Shown: piece after piece, positions 46,098 to 52,628 of the stretch | Numbering within the stretch: position 1 is the stretch's first letter | How the letters are laid out: every line of letters begins with the position of its first letter | Assembly: GCF_015732185.1 (NCBI RefSeq) | Contig: NZ_WIQM01000007.1 | Location: 1 to 64,000 of the forward strand | Length of the DNA stretch: 64,000 nucleotides | Direction of reading: 5' to 3' | Source: Pectinatus haikarae | GTDB lineage: Bacteria > Bacillota > Negativicutes > Selenomonadales > Selenomonadaceae | Translations under genes and position numbers: made by a program | Notes under the pieces: generated by a model | Seen by the model: only the letters and a program-made list of their open reading frames with translations | Database searches by the model: none | Told to the model about the DNA's origin: nothing

Positions 46098-46715
46098 TCA
46101 TTTCTTGGATACAAAAACTTTCATTAGGCCCGAGTCCGTATACTGCGATCGCAGCTTCAGCTCCAGCGGTTCAAGTACGTTCTCAAACCAGCGCGGTATA
46201 TGAGTGCAGTTAATTTCAAGCACTTCAAAATTTCTCTTTTCCAAAAAAGGAATAAGCACATCGCTGGAATGAATATTATGATTTGACATTACTTCACAAA
46301 TATCTATAAAATAATGACCTTTTCCCTTTGATACAGGATGATAGTCTGCCGCCGTCCGCAGTTTTTGGGCAGTTTTTTTCATGCCGCCGGCATGCTCCAA
46401 TTCTGCGACCTGCCAAAGCACTTTTTCTGCGATACCTTCGAGACGCCAAAGATGGTAACCTGCATCTTCGAATATCATACGGTATATGGCCTTTCCGTCT
46501 TTTGCGAGCAGGATATGACAATCCGTGATAGTGCTGATATGTTTTCGTAAAATTTTTCTTATCTGTGCTGCATCAGTGATATTTATCAGAGAATATTCAC
46601 ATTTTTTTATTTCATGCCATGCTGCGTGTTTATCCTGTTCATACAAGATAAGGTTACCCGATTCATTCATAGCAATGGTTCTGCCGTCATTATCCACCAA
46701 AGCTGCTATTCTCAC
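46098..46715 (-). CDS. anfO: Fe-only nitrogenase accessory protein AnfO
   Basis: A 205-residue protein matching the AnfO family, found only with iron-only nitrogenase. It starts RIAALVDNDGRTIAMNESGNLILYE, has ADYHPVSKGKGHYFIDICEVM in the middle region and ends with a conserved aromatic-rich PRWFENVLEPL segment. In Rhodobacter and Azotobacter anfO lies downstream of anfHDGK and is needed for diazotrophic growth with this enzyme, though its biochemical task is unclear. Start is GTG with AAGGAATGGTG upstream. It is the last gene of the operon. Confidence 0.8.
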   Translation of the reverse strand: MRIAALVDNDGRTIAMNESGNLILYEQDKHAAWHEIKKCEYSLINITDAAQIRKILRKHISTITDCHILLAKDGKAIYRMIFEDAGYHLWRLEGIAEKVLWQVAELEHAGGMKKTAQKLRTAADYHPVSKGKGHYFIDICEVMSNHNIHSSDVLIPFLEKRNFEVLEINCTHIPRWFENVLEPLELKLRSQYTDSGLMKVFVSKK

Positions 46716-46752
46716 AATAATTCACCATTCCTTATGAAAATCGGTCAAATAT

Positions 46753-47157
46753 CTACAAAGCAGCAACACCGGTTTCTTCTGTACGGATGCGTATTGATTC
46801 TTCAAGAGGCATGACAAAAATTTTCCCGTCACCTATGCCGTAGTTTGTGCGGTTTACTTTTATTATTGCCTGTACTACTTTATCAGCATCAGCATCAGAC
46901 ACCAAAACAATCACCACTCTGCAGGGAAATGTCCTGGCTCCATTGATAAATTCTGTCATCAGCAATTCTGATTTATTATCGGCAGGATCAACCTTGGCTA
47001 TAGACATTTTCCTTTTCGCGAGCAGCGTCTCATCTGTCACCCGCTTGCCTCTGCCTACTGCCTTGAAAGCAGTGAAACCTGGTATACCTATCTCCAATAA
47101 AGCCTTTTTAGTAGGACCTATTTTTTCTATGCGAATGGCAGCTATTATTTCTTTCAT
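46753..47157 (-). CDS. nifI2: PII-like nitrogenase regulator NifI2
   Basis: A 134-residue PII-family protein of the NifI2 type, longer than GlnB because of an expanded T-loop (GRGKRVTDETLLAKRKMSIAKVDPADNKSELLM). The C-terminal GIGDGKIFVMPLEESIRIRTEETG is the PII signature. NifI1 and NifI2 form a complex that binds nitrogenase dinitrogenase and stops activity unless 2-oxoglutarate is high (known from methanogens). It starts 13 bp after nifI1, with GGAGG 7 nt upstream of its ATG. Confidence 0.88.
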   Translation of the reverse strand: MKEIIAAIRIEKIGPTKKALLEIGIPGFTAFKAVGRGKRVTDETLLAKRKMSIAKVDPADNKSELLMTEFINGARTFPCRVVIVLVSDADADKVVQAIIKVNRTNYGIGDGKIFVMPLEESIRIRTEETGVAAL

Positions 47158-47170
47158 CACAGTGCCTCCG

Positions 47171-47497
47171 TCATAAGCCTGGTTTTCCGCTGGAAACAGT
47201 ATAAACCTGTTCTAAACGGCTGATAAAAATCTTTCCGTCACCGAAAGCTCCGCCATTGTCACTTTTCGCATACTTGATTATAATACCGACAACAGCTTCT
47301 CTGGCGGTATCTTCTACACCCAGCATCAGCATACATTTTGGTATTTCATCATAAATGCGTTCACCAAATTTTATCCCCTGCTGTTTACCGCGCCCAACAA
47401 CATCGACAACAGTTACGGAATGGAAACCTGCTTTCGAAAGTTCTTCCAATAATAGCTCTTTCTTTTCCGGCCTGACAAATGCCTTAATCATTAACAT
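47171..47497 (-). CDS. nifI1: PII-like nitrogenase regulator NifI1
   Basis: A 108-residue PII-family protein of the NifI1 type: MIKAFVRPEKKELLLEELSKAGFHSVTVVDVVGRGKQQGI with the short NifI1-like T-loop KFGERIYDEIPKCMLM. GGAFGDGKIFISRLEQVYTVSSG is the C-terminal PII block. The ATG at 47497 follows AAGGAAG by 8 nt. In other nitrogen fixers nifI1-nifI2 lie between nifH and nifD; here they follow anfK and an amidotransferase, probably acting on the Fe-only enzyme. Confidence 0.88.
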   Translation of the reverse strand: MLMIKAFVRPEKKELLLEELSKAGFHSVTVVDVVGRGKQQGIKFGERIYDEIPKCMLMLGVEDTAREAVVGIIIKYAKSDNGGAFGDGKIFISRLEQVYTVSSGKPGL

Positions 47498-50178: not shown

Positions 50179-50204
50179 GGTAATCTGCAACTCCTTTGTA
50201 TAAT

Positions 50205-51770
50205 TTAGACTGCCGCCTGTTTTCCCTTCATCGGATATTGTGGATATTCTCTGTCGCGCAGTCGTTTCAGGCTGTCGAATTCTCCCGTATATTCATGCAT
50301 TTCTTTGGAATTCACAATAGATTCATCCAACTGCGTATCGGAAAACATTTGCCGTGTCATAAAGCCTTTATCTGTTTCTATTTCATCCTTGCTTATATCA
50401 ACAAATGCCAATTGATGAATAGGTGAATATATTGCGTTATAAAGATCTCTGGCAAGTCGCACCCAACCTTCAAAACCTTTATACGGTCCGTTGTTATAAG
50501 CATGGACATTGACATAGGGAACCCGTATTTTTTTTGCTACTTCCCCCGGACGTTTCCCTGTGACTATAACATCCGGCTTTAACTTATACATTGCTTCAAT
50601 ACATTCAAGTTCGTTTGGATCATCAATTGCCAAAGCACCGACTTCGCACCGGGAAACACCTTTTTCCATGTCGCCCTGATGTCCGAATTTGGTATATACG
50701 GATACTACTTCCAATCCCATTTCTTCATGAATGACATGAGCCCAATGCCAGAGTTTTGACCCACCCGGCCACAAGCATATCTTTTTACCCTTAAGTCTTG
50801 CCGCATACCAATCAAGTTCGGGTTTCCAGCGTTTTGTTTCTTCTTCTATAATGGCCTCAGCTCTGTCCTCAATACCAAAGAATAAGCCAATTTTACGCAA
50901 AGAGCCTGACAATGACTTAAAGCCAAAACCGTCAATATCCATACGCGGAATACCATAGCGTTTACGCAGTTCATCGCAGATATACTCTGCGGACCGGGCA
51001 CATTCCAGTACATTGAGCTTTGCTCTATGCATAGCCCTCAAATCATCATAGGAGCCGTTTCCCGTAAATGTTGAGAGAATCTGTATACCCATTCTTTTAA
51101 AGTAATCCTGCATAATCTGCTGATCACCCTGAATATTGTATTCTCCTACATAATTAATTACAAAATCGCTTGTAATTGTAGGCTCTACCTGACCTACTTT
51201 GTCATTCACCCATGCAATATTGATTTTATGATGGCCTCCTGACTGACTTGGTCCGGCAAATCCAGGAGAATTACATACAAAGATATCTACATCCGGCATT
51301 TCATCCATTACTTCCTGAGAGATTGCCTTGATATCATCTCCGATCAATGCAGAAGCGCAGGTCTGATAAATAGTCATCCGCTTTATTTTTGGAAAGGCTT
51401 TGAATGCTTCAAGAATATTATTTTTTAATACCTTTTCCGCACCAAAAACTATATGCTTTTCTTTCATATCGGAGGCAAAAGTATATTTTATCTGAAAATT
51501 ATCATTATCACTTATATACCTTTTGGTCTGCCACGTATCATAGGTGCAGCCTATAGGCCCGTGGCTGAGGTGAATAACATCTTTCATCGGCGTACCTATA
51601 ACATGTTTAGCACCACAATAAGCACATCCGCGTTCGGACAATGTACCAGGAATAGTATTAAGATATCCCAATGGCAGCGCATCAGATAAATTTTCATCTT
51701 TTCCTTTATCTACGGCGTGCTTTATTCTTTCCGGTATGCATTTGCTGCATTCAAACTCATGATATGGCAT
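50205..51770 (-). CDS. anfD: Fe-only nitrogenase alpha subunit
   Basis: Dinitrogenase alpha chain of 521 residues, carrying the iron-only cofactor and half of the P-cluster. P-cluster cysteines are Cys49 (SERGCAYCG), Cys75 ([11 protein letters not shown]) and Cys138 ([12 protein letters not shown]). The cofactor cysteine is Cys257 ([11 protein letters not shown]), and the cofactor histidine lies in [17 protein letters not shown]. Stretches such as [18 protein letters not shown] and [15 protein letters not shown] are of the AnfD type, differing from VnfD as I know it. GGGAGG lies upstream, 33 bp after anfH. Confidence 0.96.
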
Positions 51771-51803
51771 TTCTATTCCTCCCTGTATCAGTGATAAACC
51801 GTG

Positions 51804-52628
51804 TCAATCAGATATTCCGTATTTTACTACCATAGCTTCCAGGTCATCCATTTTTAAGGGATGCGGTATAACAAAATCCTTATTGTCTATGATTTTTTGA
51901 GCTAAGGTTCTATATTCATTGGCCTGATTGCACTCAGCATCATATTCTACAACGGTCTTTTTATTGAATTCTGCTTTCTGAACAACATTATCACGGGGCA
52001 CAAAGTGTATCATTTTAGTCCCTATGGCCGAAGTAAATTCTTCTAAAAATTCTTTTTCTCTATCTACATTGCGGCTGTTGCAAATTATACCGCCCAAGCG
52101 GACTCCGCTTTGTTTAGCATATTTAAGCAACCCTTTGCAAATATTATTGGCCGCATAAATGGCCATCATTTCGCCTGAAGCGACAATATATACCTCTTGT
52201 GCTTTACCTTCACGTATAGGCATGGCAAAACCGCCGCAAACAACATCTCCTAATACATCAAAAAACACGAAATCAAGATCATCAGTATAAGCTCCATTTT
52301 TTTCCATCAGATCGATAGCAGTTATAACTCCGCGTCCTGCACAGCCAACTCCCGGTTCAGGACCGCCGGATTCAACACAGCGGATGCCACCGTATCCTTC
52401 CTTTACAACGCGGTCAACTGTGATTTTTTCTTCACCATCATCACGCAGCATATCCATCAATGTTTTCTGATTCATCCCGCCCAGTATCATGCGTGTAGAA
52501 TCTGCCTTAGGGTCGCAGCCATGTATAAATACCTTCTTATCGAAAAAATGGGCCATAGCTCCTGCTGTATTTTGCTGCGTGGTTGATTTGCCAATGCCGC
52601 CTTTTCCATAAATTGCAATCTTTCTCAT
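51804..52628 (-). CDS. anfH: Fe-only nitrogenase reductase (iron protein)
   Basis: Homodimeric ATPase of 274 residues that feeds electrons to AnfDGK. P-loop GKGGIGKST is at residues 8-16, with switch and signature regions after it. The [4Fe-4S] ligands are Cys96 (GVGCAGRG) and Cys131 ([10 protein letters not shown]). Arg99 is the residue ADP-ribosylated by DraT in organisms that have it. It belongs to the NifH/VnfH/AnfH group; the AnfH name rests on the operon. GAGGGG lies upstream, and a 220-nt leader separates it from the terminator at 52846-52893. Confidence 0.95.

Follow-up and report, generated by a model that had tools for sequence, protein, structure and literature searches.

Fe-only nitrogenase operon at the locus

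The stretch of Pectinatus haikarae DNA analysed here (contig NZ_WIQM01000007.1, positions 1 to 64,000; the whole 64,000 nt are referred to as the window) carries a nitrogenase operon on the minus strand (46098-52628) and, upstream of its first gene anfH, a predicted small RNA gene (about 52685-52803), which is encoded on the other strand, conserved, and apparently undescribed. The original prediction, made from the sequence of the window, placed an Fe-only operon anfH-D-G-K with anfO here, in a low-GC anaerobe. All five genes were present on the minus strand and were named by curated models, but a class-I glutamine amidotransferase gene and two PII-family, NifI-like genes between anfK and anfO had gone unmentioned. 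The G+C content of the window was 34-42% per 4 kb, consistent with the low-GC description, and Pectinatus is an anaerobic genus. The reduction of CO2 to methane as a side reaction, which was also claimed, belongs to the general knowledge of the Fe-only nitrogenase family.

The Fe protein gene anfH (51804-52628, 274 aa) scored 469.7 bits with TIGR01287 (nifH; cut-off 394), and its product was 97-98% identical to AnfH of three other Pectinatus loci (L026-L028). The gene for the FeFe protein alpha subunit, anfD (50205-51770, 521 aa), scored 1045.7 bits with TIGR01861 (cut-off 873.8) and stayed below the cut-offs of the other types (VNFD, 695 against 823; nifD, 348 against 654). The beta subunit gene anfK (48311-49699) scored 875.1 with TIGR02931 (cut-off 853.9), again below the cut-offs for vnfK (742 against 874) and nifK (342 against 427); its open reading frame (ORF) opens at 49822, and the ATG at 49699 gives 462 aa, a length also seen in L026-L028. 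The type assignment had been made to depend on the small gene downstream of anfD belonging to the delta-subunit family, and it survived, since anfG (49831-50190; PF03139) passed TIGR02929 (137.9 bits, cut-off 124.7); the score with vnfG was under the cut-off (92.5 against 141.7).

The best matches of AnfD in the PDB were 8boq_A (992 bits) and 8oie (916 bits), two entries with beta chains labelled Fe-only or iron-iron, which we take to be structures of the Rhodobacter capsulatus and Azotobacter vinelandii Anf enzymes. These were followed by VnfD (623 bits), 9spz (383 bits; an alpha chain of unstated type), and MoFe or molybdenum-iron chains (about 234-255 bits). For comparison, the best 80 of 151 confirmed stretches with AnfD relatives were kept as further anf loci. 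The residues C257 and H423 and the cysteines 52, 75, and 138 of AnfD, whose numbering and roles as ligands are presumed here, were kept in 81 of 81 sequences (the window and the 80 others). Model scores, PDB ranking, and ligand residues thus bear out the Fe-only type, and the nitrogenase is, as judged from these sequence features, a genuine Fe-only enzyme. Three residues from H423, residue 426 (50493-50495) is Asn in the window and His in all 80 other AnfD sequences; together with Val at 420 and 422, Asn426 alters the patch around this ligand. The closest AnfD proteins among the matches listed, which may exclude the window's own record, were those of three Pectinatus species (88-91% identical); Pectinatus, like Pelosinus, belongs to the class Negativicutes.

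The locus shares the AnfHDGK order, AnfO, and the cofactor ligands with the Anf systems of R. capsulatus and A. vinelandii. It differs from them in the amidotransferase and NifI1-NifI2 genes 3' of anfK, in Asn426 of AnfD, and in that no Vnf was seen; nor does the operon contain genes that would be recognised by eye as anfR- or anf3-like. Taken as an Fe-only operon alone, it is ordinary and of a kind already known.

Predicted small RNA gene opposite the probable anfH leader

On the plus strand upstream of anfH, a promoter scan detected the sequence TTGAAA-N17-TATACT (52685-52713), which is conserved in other copies, followed by a predicted small RNA of about 84 nt (52720-52803; covariance model, fold z -3.9) that ends in a terminator stem (52768-52797) and TTTTT. 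In the scan of the window, promoter-like sites in the region upstream of anfH were no commoner than in shuffled sequences. The anfH 5' leaders of Pectinatus species could be aligned with one another and, less closely, with that of Propionispora, and related copies were recognised in other leaders; the covariance model R1 was built from 14 seed rows, representing 9 of the 81 anf loci. Scans with Rfam at the gathering score gave no match, either in the window or in the 20 small RNA-containing loci scanned, and the 12 sub-threshold matches obtained on the anfH leader at E values up to 10 were chance-like, none being plausible. No description of this RNA was found in the literature at the level of titles and abstract beginnings. 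A small coding gene in its place was rejected, the longest ORFs being 8-33 codons and of inconstant length across 43 rows.

The strand of the RNA was read from the conserved 12-bp stem. Read on the sense strand, that of the nitrogenase genes, the stem contains 19 A-C cells and one G-U cell; on the opposite strand it contains 19 G-U cells, from 15 sequences, and one A-C. Because G-U outnumbers A-C 19 to 1 there, the RNA was assigned to the strand opposite to the nitrogenase genes. Promoter and terminator were then counted in 72 copies chosen out of 124 matches, a set that leaves out opposite-strand matches and some further copies. A promoter matching 10 or 11 of 12 positions was present in 59 of the 72, with a 17-nt spacer in 57 of those, and 53 copies read exactly TTGAAA-17-TATA[AC]T; the promoter lies 67-91 nt before the stem end, and shuffles of the same region reached 10 of 12 in 5.4% of cases (195/3600). 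The 13 copies without a promoter of at least 10 of 12 comprised 11 distal tandem copies and the copies of L174 and L176. At least five T within 8 nt 3' of the stem were found in 65 of the 72.

The covariation counts rest on 43 chosen copies (alignments A3 and A4); this choice excluded nearly identical copies, matches on the opposite strand, distal tandem copies lacking a promoter, and the copies of L174 and L175. In A4, 93.2% of cells pair, a figure that rises to 99.2% for the terminator stem, and both partners vary in 12 of the 19 pairs. None of 500 shuffles reached the observed number of paired cells or the covariation score, and slid versions of the structure paired in 37-42%. RNAalifold, unaided, predicted the long stem only. 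The results showed that promoter, covarying structure, and terminator lie together on one strand, as is required of a small RNA gene.

The distribution of the RNA ties it to nitrogenase. In the 3.1 Mb of the window's own genome, R1 marked a single place, with scores computed for 150 of 1484 first-look candidates. Among 380 genomes of the class, taken to be the Negativicutes, with 10 candidates scored per genome, matches were obtained in 47, about 8 of which hold the model's own seed rows, as judged by matching loci. The RNA was found in 45 of 61 nifE-positive genomes vs 2 of 319 others (Fisher 3e-42, not corrected for kinship); of the latter two, one gave a weak match of 31 bits and the other genome is 58% complete. 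Forty flanks were hand-picked from the class-wide matches, mostly outside the known anf loci and several from close relatives. Thirty-seven adjoin a nitrogenase operon (33 Mo-nifH, one nifI1-I2-nifH, and three anf), the others being L171, L174, and L175. Under stricter filters, 398 genomes from across the phylum yielded matches in just two, that of the window and another Pectinatus; this set contains 14 genomes of the same class, 12 of them without a match. In Clostridium intestinale (L071), which also supplied a seed row of R1, the RNA stands before anf.

A shortened copy was observed in a Pectinatus genome upstream of genes resembling ACT-hom-thrB (L175; G142:C15:65979-66058). The anf operon of the window adjoins genes of the same kind (42978-45690), and the shortened copy looks like a relic of an anf operon that was lost or moved.

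Accessory genes and cofactor supply

The amidotransferase gene (47560-48261, minus strand) scored 74 bits with PF00117, encodes an intact Cys-His-Glu triad, and is a candidate anf accessory gene. In tblastn searches, an amidotransferase was detected within 5 kb of anf and on the same strand in 26 of the 80 other loci; positive loci made up 19 of 28 in Bacillota vs 7 of 52 in other phyla, this split being assigned by eye. Protein clustering, which follows a different rule, gathered 25 amidotransferases from 25 of the 81 loci, the window included, into one family; the triad was kept in all 25, and three of them, that of the window among these, are encoded on the minus strand. The second-best amidotransferase match in the genome was weak (30 bits). 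A gene resembling gamma-glutamylcyclotransferase by eye occupies a similar place in 13 of the 80 loci, and only L051 has both. The presence of the two kinds of gene near anf suggests a gamma-glutamyl chemistry. In the literature library searched, no paper joined Fe-only nitrogenase, glutamine amidotransferase, and anf. The recurrent amidotransferase may be regarded as a second testable partner of anf.

The two PII-family genes are NifI1-like (47171-47515, start probably at 47497; PF00543, 71 bits) and NifI2-like (46753-47160; PF00543, 73.7 bits), both on the minus strand. They resemble the NifI1/NifI2 switch-off pair in being two PII-family genes inside a nitrogenase operon, the assignment here being by PF00543 only. 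The pair sits 3' of anfK in the window and in L026, L028, and L044, whereas in 28 of the 80 other loci it separates anfH from anfD.

The product of anfO (46098-46715, minus strand) scored 140 bits with PF09582 (cut-off 30.3) and 113.3 with TIGR02940, under the cut-off of 129.2. The AnfO protein of A. vinelandii is reported to bind both FeMo- and FeV-cofactor and to exclude the latter from the FeFe protein (PMC11938142, PMC9310841). Because no Vnf was seen in the present genome, guarding against FeMo-cofactor is the likelier role here. A second AnfO-like gene (C1:571553-572182; L024:16554-17183) was noticed divergent beside the Mo-nifH of the genome (TIGR02940, 99.4; cut-off 129).

The original prediction saw no Mo-nitrogenase genes, nifB, or nifEN in the window and placed the cofactor genes elsewhere, and the genome search (3.11 Mb, 17 contigs, 99.6% complete) agreed on both points. 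Of the 15 PF00148 matches in the genome, the contig of the window (C13) holds only anfD and anfK; the five matches to the nifB model are all on C1. There, a Mo-nif cluster (C1:559995-570920) with four PF00148 matches has the order H-I1-I2-D-K-E-(N-B fusion)-split NifV. The NifN-NifB fusion protein has 906 aa, and NifV is divided between two genes, each part under the full-length cut-off. With NCBIfam models, NifE and NifB scored above their cut-offs, and NifD (639, cut-off 654) and NifK (415, cut-off 427) slightly under. Since NifB and NifV are encoded in this cluster, they would be available for FeFe-cofactor. No Vnf model was passed by the 14 of the 15 PF00148 proteins that were scanned with NCBIfam, the one left out (C1:344960) sharing its neighbour's motifs. 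A protein of C6 is 58% identical to the Anf3-like protein of L027.

The nine remaining PF00148 matches are nitrogenase-like D/K genes in a sulphur-type region at C1:313-361 kb (C1:313531-361000; L021-L023). Two NifH-like genes and one for a NifB-like radical SAM protein accompany them, as do genes that look by eye like those of transporters and PLP enzymes. One of its D proteins scored 434 bits against the PDB chain 9fmg_A, which we take to be R. rubrum MarD. The residues aligned with Cys270 and His429 of that chain, reported as ligands (PMC12552129), were kept in four of the five D proteins.

Two further genes lie upstream of anfH on its strand: one for an EFR1 flavodoxin/ferredoxin-type protein (53085-53876; NF038196, 240 bits) and an ORF that resembles, by eye, a flavodoxin-type NADPH-dependent reductase (53970-54626); a role of these genes in electron supply is conceivable.

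Proposed regulation of anfHDGK and alternatives

In the leader region, a putative anfH mRNA promoter, TTGACT-N17-TAAAGT (52922-52950, minus strand), was found by the promoter scan, and a similar motif was read by eye in L026-L028. Relative to the hairpin, the H gene starts between +95 and +220 in 32 of 42 loci. As little room is left there for another mRNA promoter, the nitrogenase mRNA probably starts beyond the small RNA gene, and its leader would then be complementary to the whole RNA. A search for a sigma-54 promoter gave 31 matches in the window (at most two mismatches) against 38 expected by chance, and none upstream of the 42 leaders; such a promoter for anfH was rejected.

Between the putative promoter and the small RNA gene, the anfH leader contains a terminator-like hairpin (52853-52895, minus strand), predicted by folding and absent from the terminator-scan listing, and the sequence AGC[AAAGGU]GCU (52888-52899, minus strand), which resembles the hexaloops recognised by ANTAR proteins. 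In a strict test for an ANTAR hairpin plus terminator, L027 and L028 passed, and the window and L026 failed. By this test, which scores single hairpins, 20 of 42 leaders have an ANTAR-type hexaloop hairpin that overlaps a terminator and precedes the small RNA, vs 0.4% of shuffles, and 19 of these 20 have the form AGC[A..G..]GCT. The genome encodes two ANTAR regulators, each 3' of an ORF that resembles a sensor kinase by eye. In Pelobacter, leaders under ANTAR control have been predicted ahead of nitrogenase genes (PMC3369931), and the hexaloop hairpins found here are similar to those described there. Also on the sense strand, 30 of 42 leaders have a GGAGG at a distance of 29-62 nt ahead of the stem (7.5% of shuffles); by eye, no conserved ORF obviously follows it.

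From these sequence data, we consider it moderately probable that the locus encodes a working Fe-only nitrogenase together with a divergent small RNA that pairs with the anfH leader and lowers or times the expression of anfHDGK. AnfDGK would receive an FeFe-cofactor built with NifB and NifV of the Mo-nif cluster, AnfO may guard the enzyme from FeMo-cofactor, and the NifI pair may throttle nitrogenase activity post-translationally. ANTAR-type antitermination would admit transcription into the nitrogenase leader. The small RNA, presumably transcribed away from anfH on the opposite strand, would pair with that leader, to which it would be fully complementary if the mRNA starts beyond the RNA gene, and could thereby reduce or time expression of the operon.

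Several observations weigh against this proposal. Upstream of the RNA gene, a promoter for the sense mRNA was found in 10 of 42 loci vs 14% of shuffles and is not clearly conserved, and the sigma-54 search described above yielded none. The inner helices in A4 pair less well (79.7% and 87.2% of cells). R1 gave no match on the 81 anf loci beyond its seed loci and none at the Mo-nif cluster of the window's own genome, and 16 of the 61 nifE-positive genomes had no match, some of which may be misses given the 10 candidates scored per genome. Furthermore, different genera share the sequence of the 5' region of the RNA (GGGUA..AUCAAAUAAACC) to a degree that antisense pairing in cis would not by itself demand, which hints at targets in trans or at a protein.

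A mainly trans-acting RNA, pairing with other mRNAs or binding a protein, whose location at nitrogenase operons does no more than tie its expression to nitrogen fixation, is a real possibility, if not a probable one. It is favoured by the conserved 5' region and by the mean pairwise identity of the small RNA rows, which was 0.68 among anf-linked, 0.60 among nif-linked, and 0.58 between the two groups. It has no known target to point to, no genome-wide target search having been made. A Pelosinus locus (L051, 5980-6320) also speaks against a strand-specific loop: its loops are inverted, with TTCGTGG for CCACGAA, in all three leader hairpins, a change that pairing between sense and antisense strands would tolerate.

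It is unlikely that the element is instead a sense-strand structure of the nitrogenase mRNA leader, such as a riboswitch or attenuator, with no separate RNA. The element does occupy what is probably the 5' leader, with the H gene starting 95-220 nt further on in most loci, and the leader of the window folds better than shuffles (z -5.9), but the wobble asymmetry of the stem (19 A-C to one G-U when read sense), together with the promoter and T-run on the opposite strand, led to the rejection of a sense-strand riboswitch. Decoy RNAs for ANTAR proteins are known from Eut systems, and the RNA could by analogy sequester an ANTAR antiterminator that controls the nif and anf leaders. The hexaloop hairpins with terminators upstream of it and the two ANTAR regulators of the genome would fit such a role; the RNA itself, however, is unlike an ANTAR dual hairpin by eye, and no A1/G4 hexaloop hairpin was seen in it by eye, no systematic search having been run; a decoy is very improbable. 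That the element is a mobile element or a hairpin repeat dispersed in the genome, near nif by chance, was rejected as scarcely credible, for it has a single place in the window's genome, 37 of the 40 chosen flanks are at nitrogenase, and promoter and terminator are kept, despite the tandem and partial copies and the relic-like copy at the ACT-hom-thrB genes of one Pectinatus.

Nitrogen fixation is already known to involve small RNAs; the present one is apparently undescribed. NfiS and NfiR of Pseudomonas stutzeri are likewise small RNAs tied to nitrogenase expression, and NfiS is reported to pair in trans with nifK and katB mRNA (PMC6606865, PMC6755748). The RNA described here is instead divergent before nifH or anfH, opposite the probable leader; it is set apart from NfiS and NfiR by this description, not by a comparison of sequences.

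In summary, the Fe-only nitrogenase operon of P. haikarae appears to be accompanied by an antisense RNA gene of its leader. A wider proposal, that this RNA controls nitrogenase operons throughout the Negativicutes and that copies at both Mo-nif and anf let one system silence or adjust the other, is rather doubtful at present. The control of nitrogenase is best known through NifA or AnfA and sigma-54. If the antisense proposal is true, an RNA gene in the nif and anf control regions across a class of anaerobes would represent a different layer of control, and it would be relevant to the transfer of Fe-only nitrogenase to new hosts.

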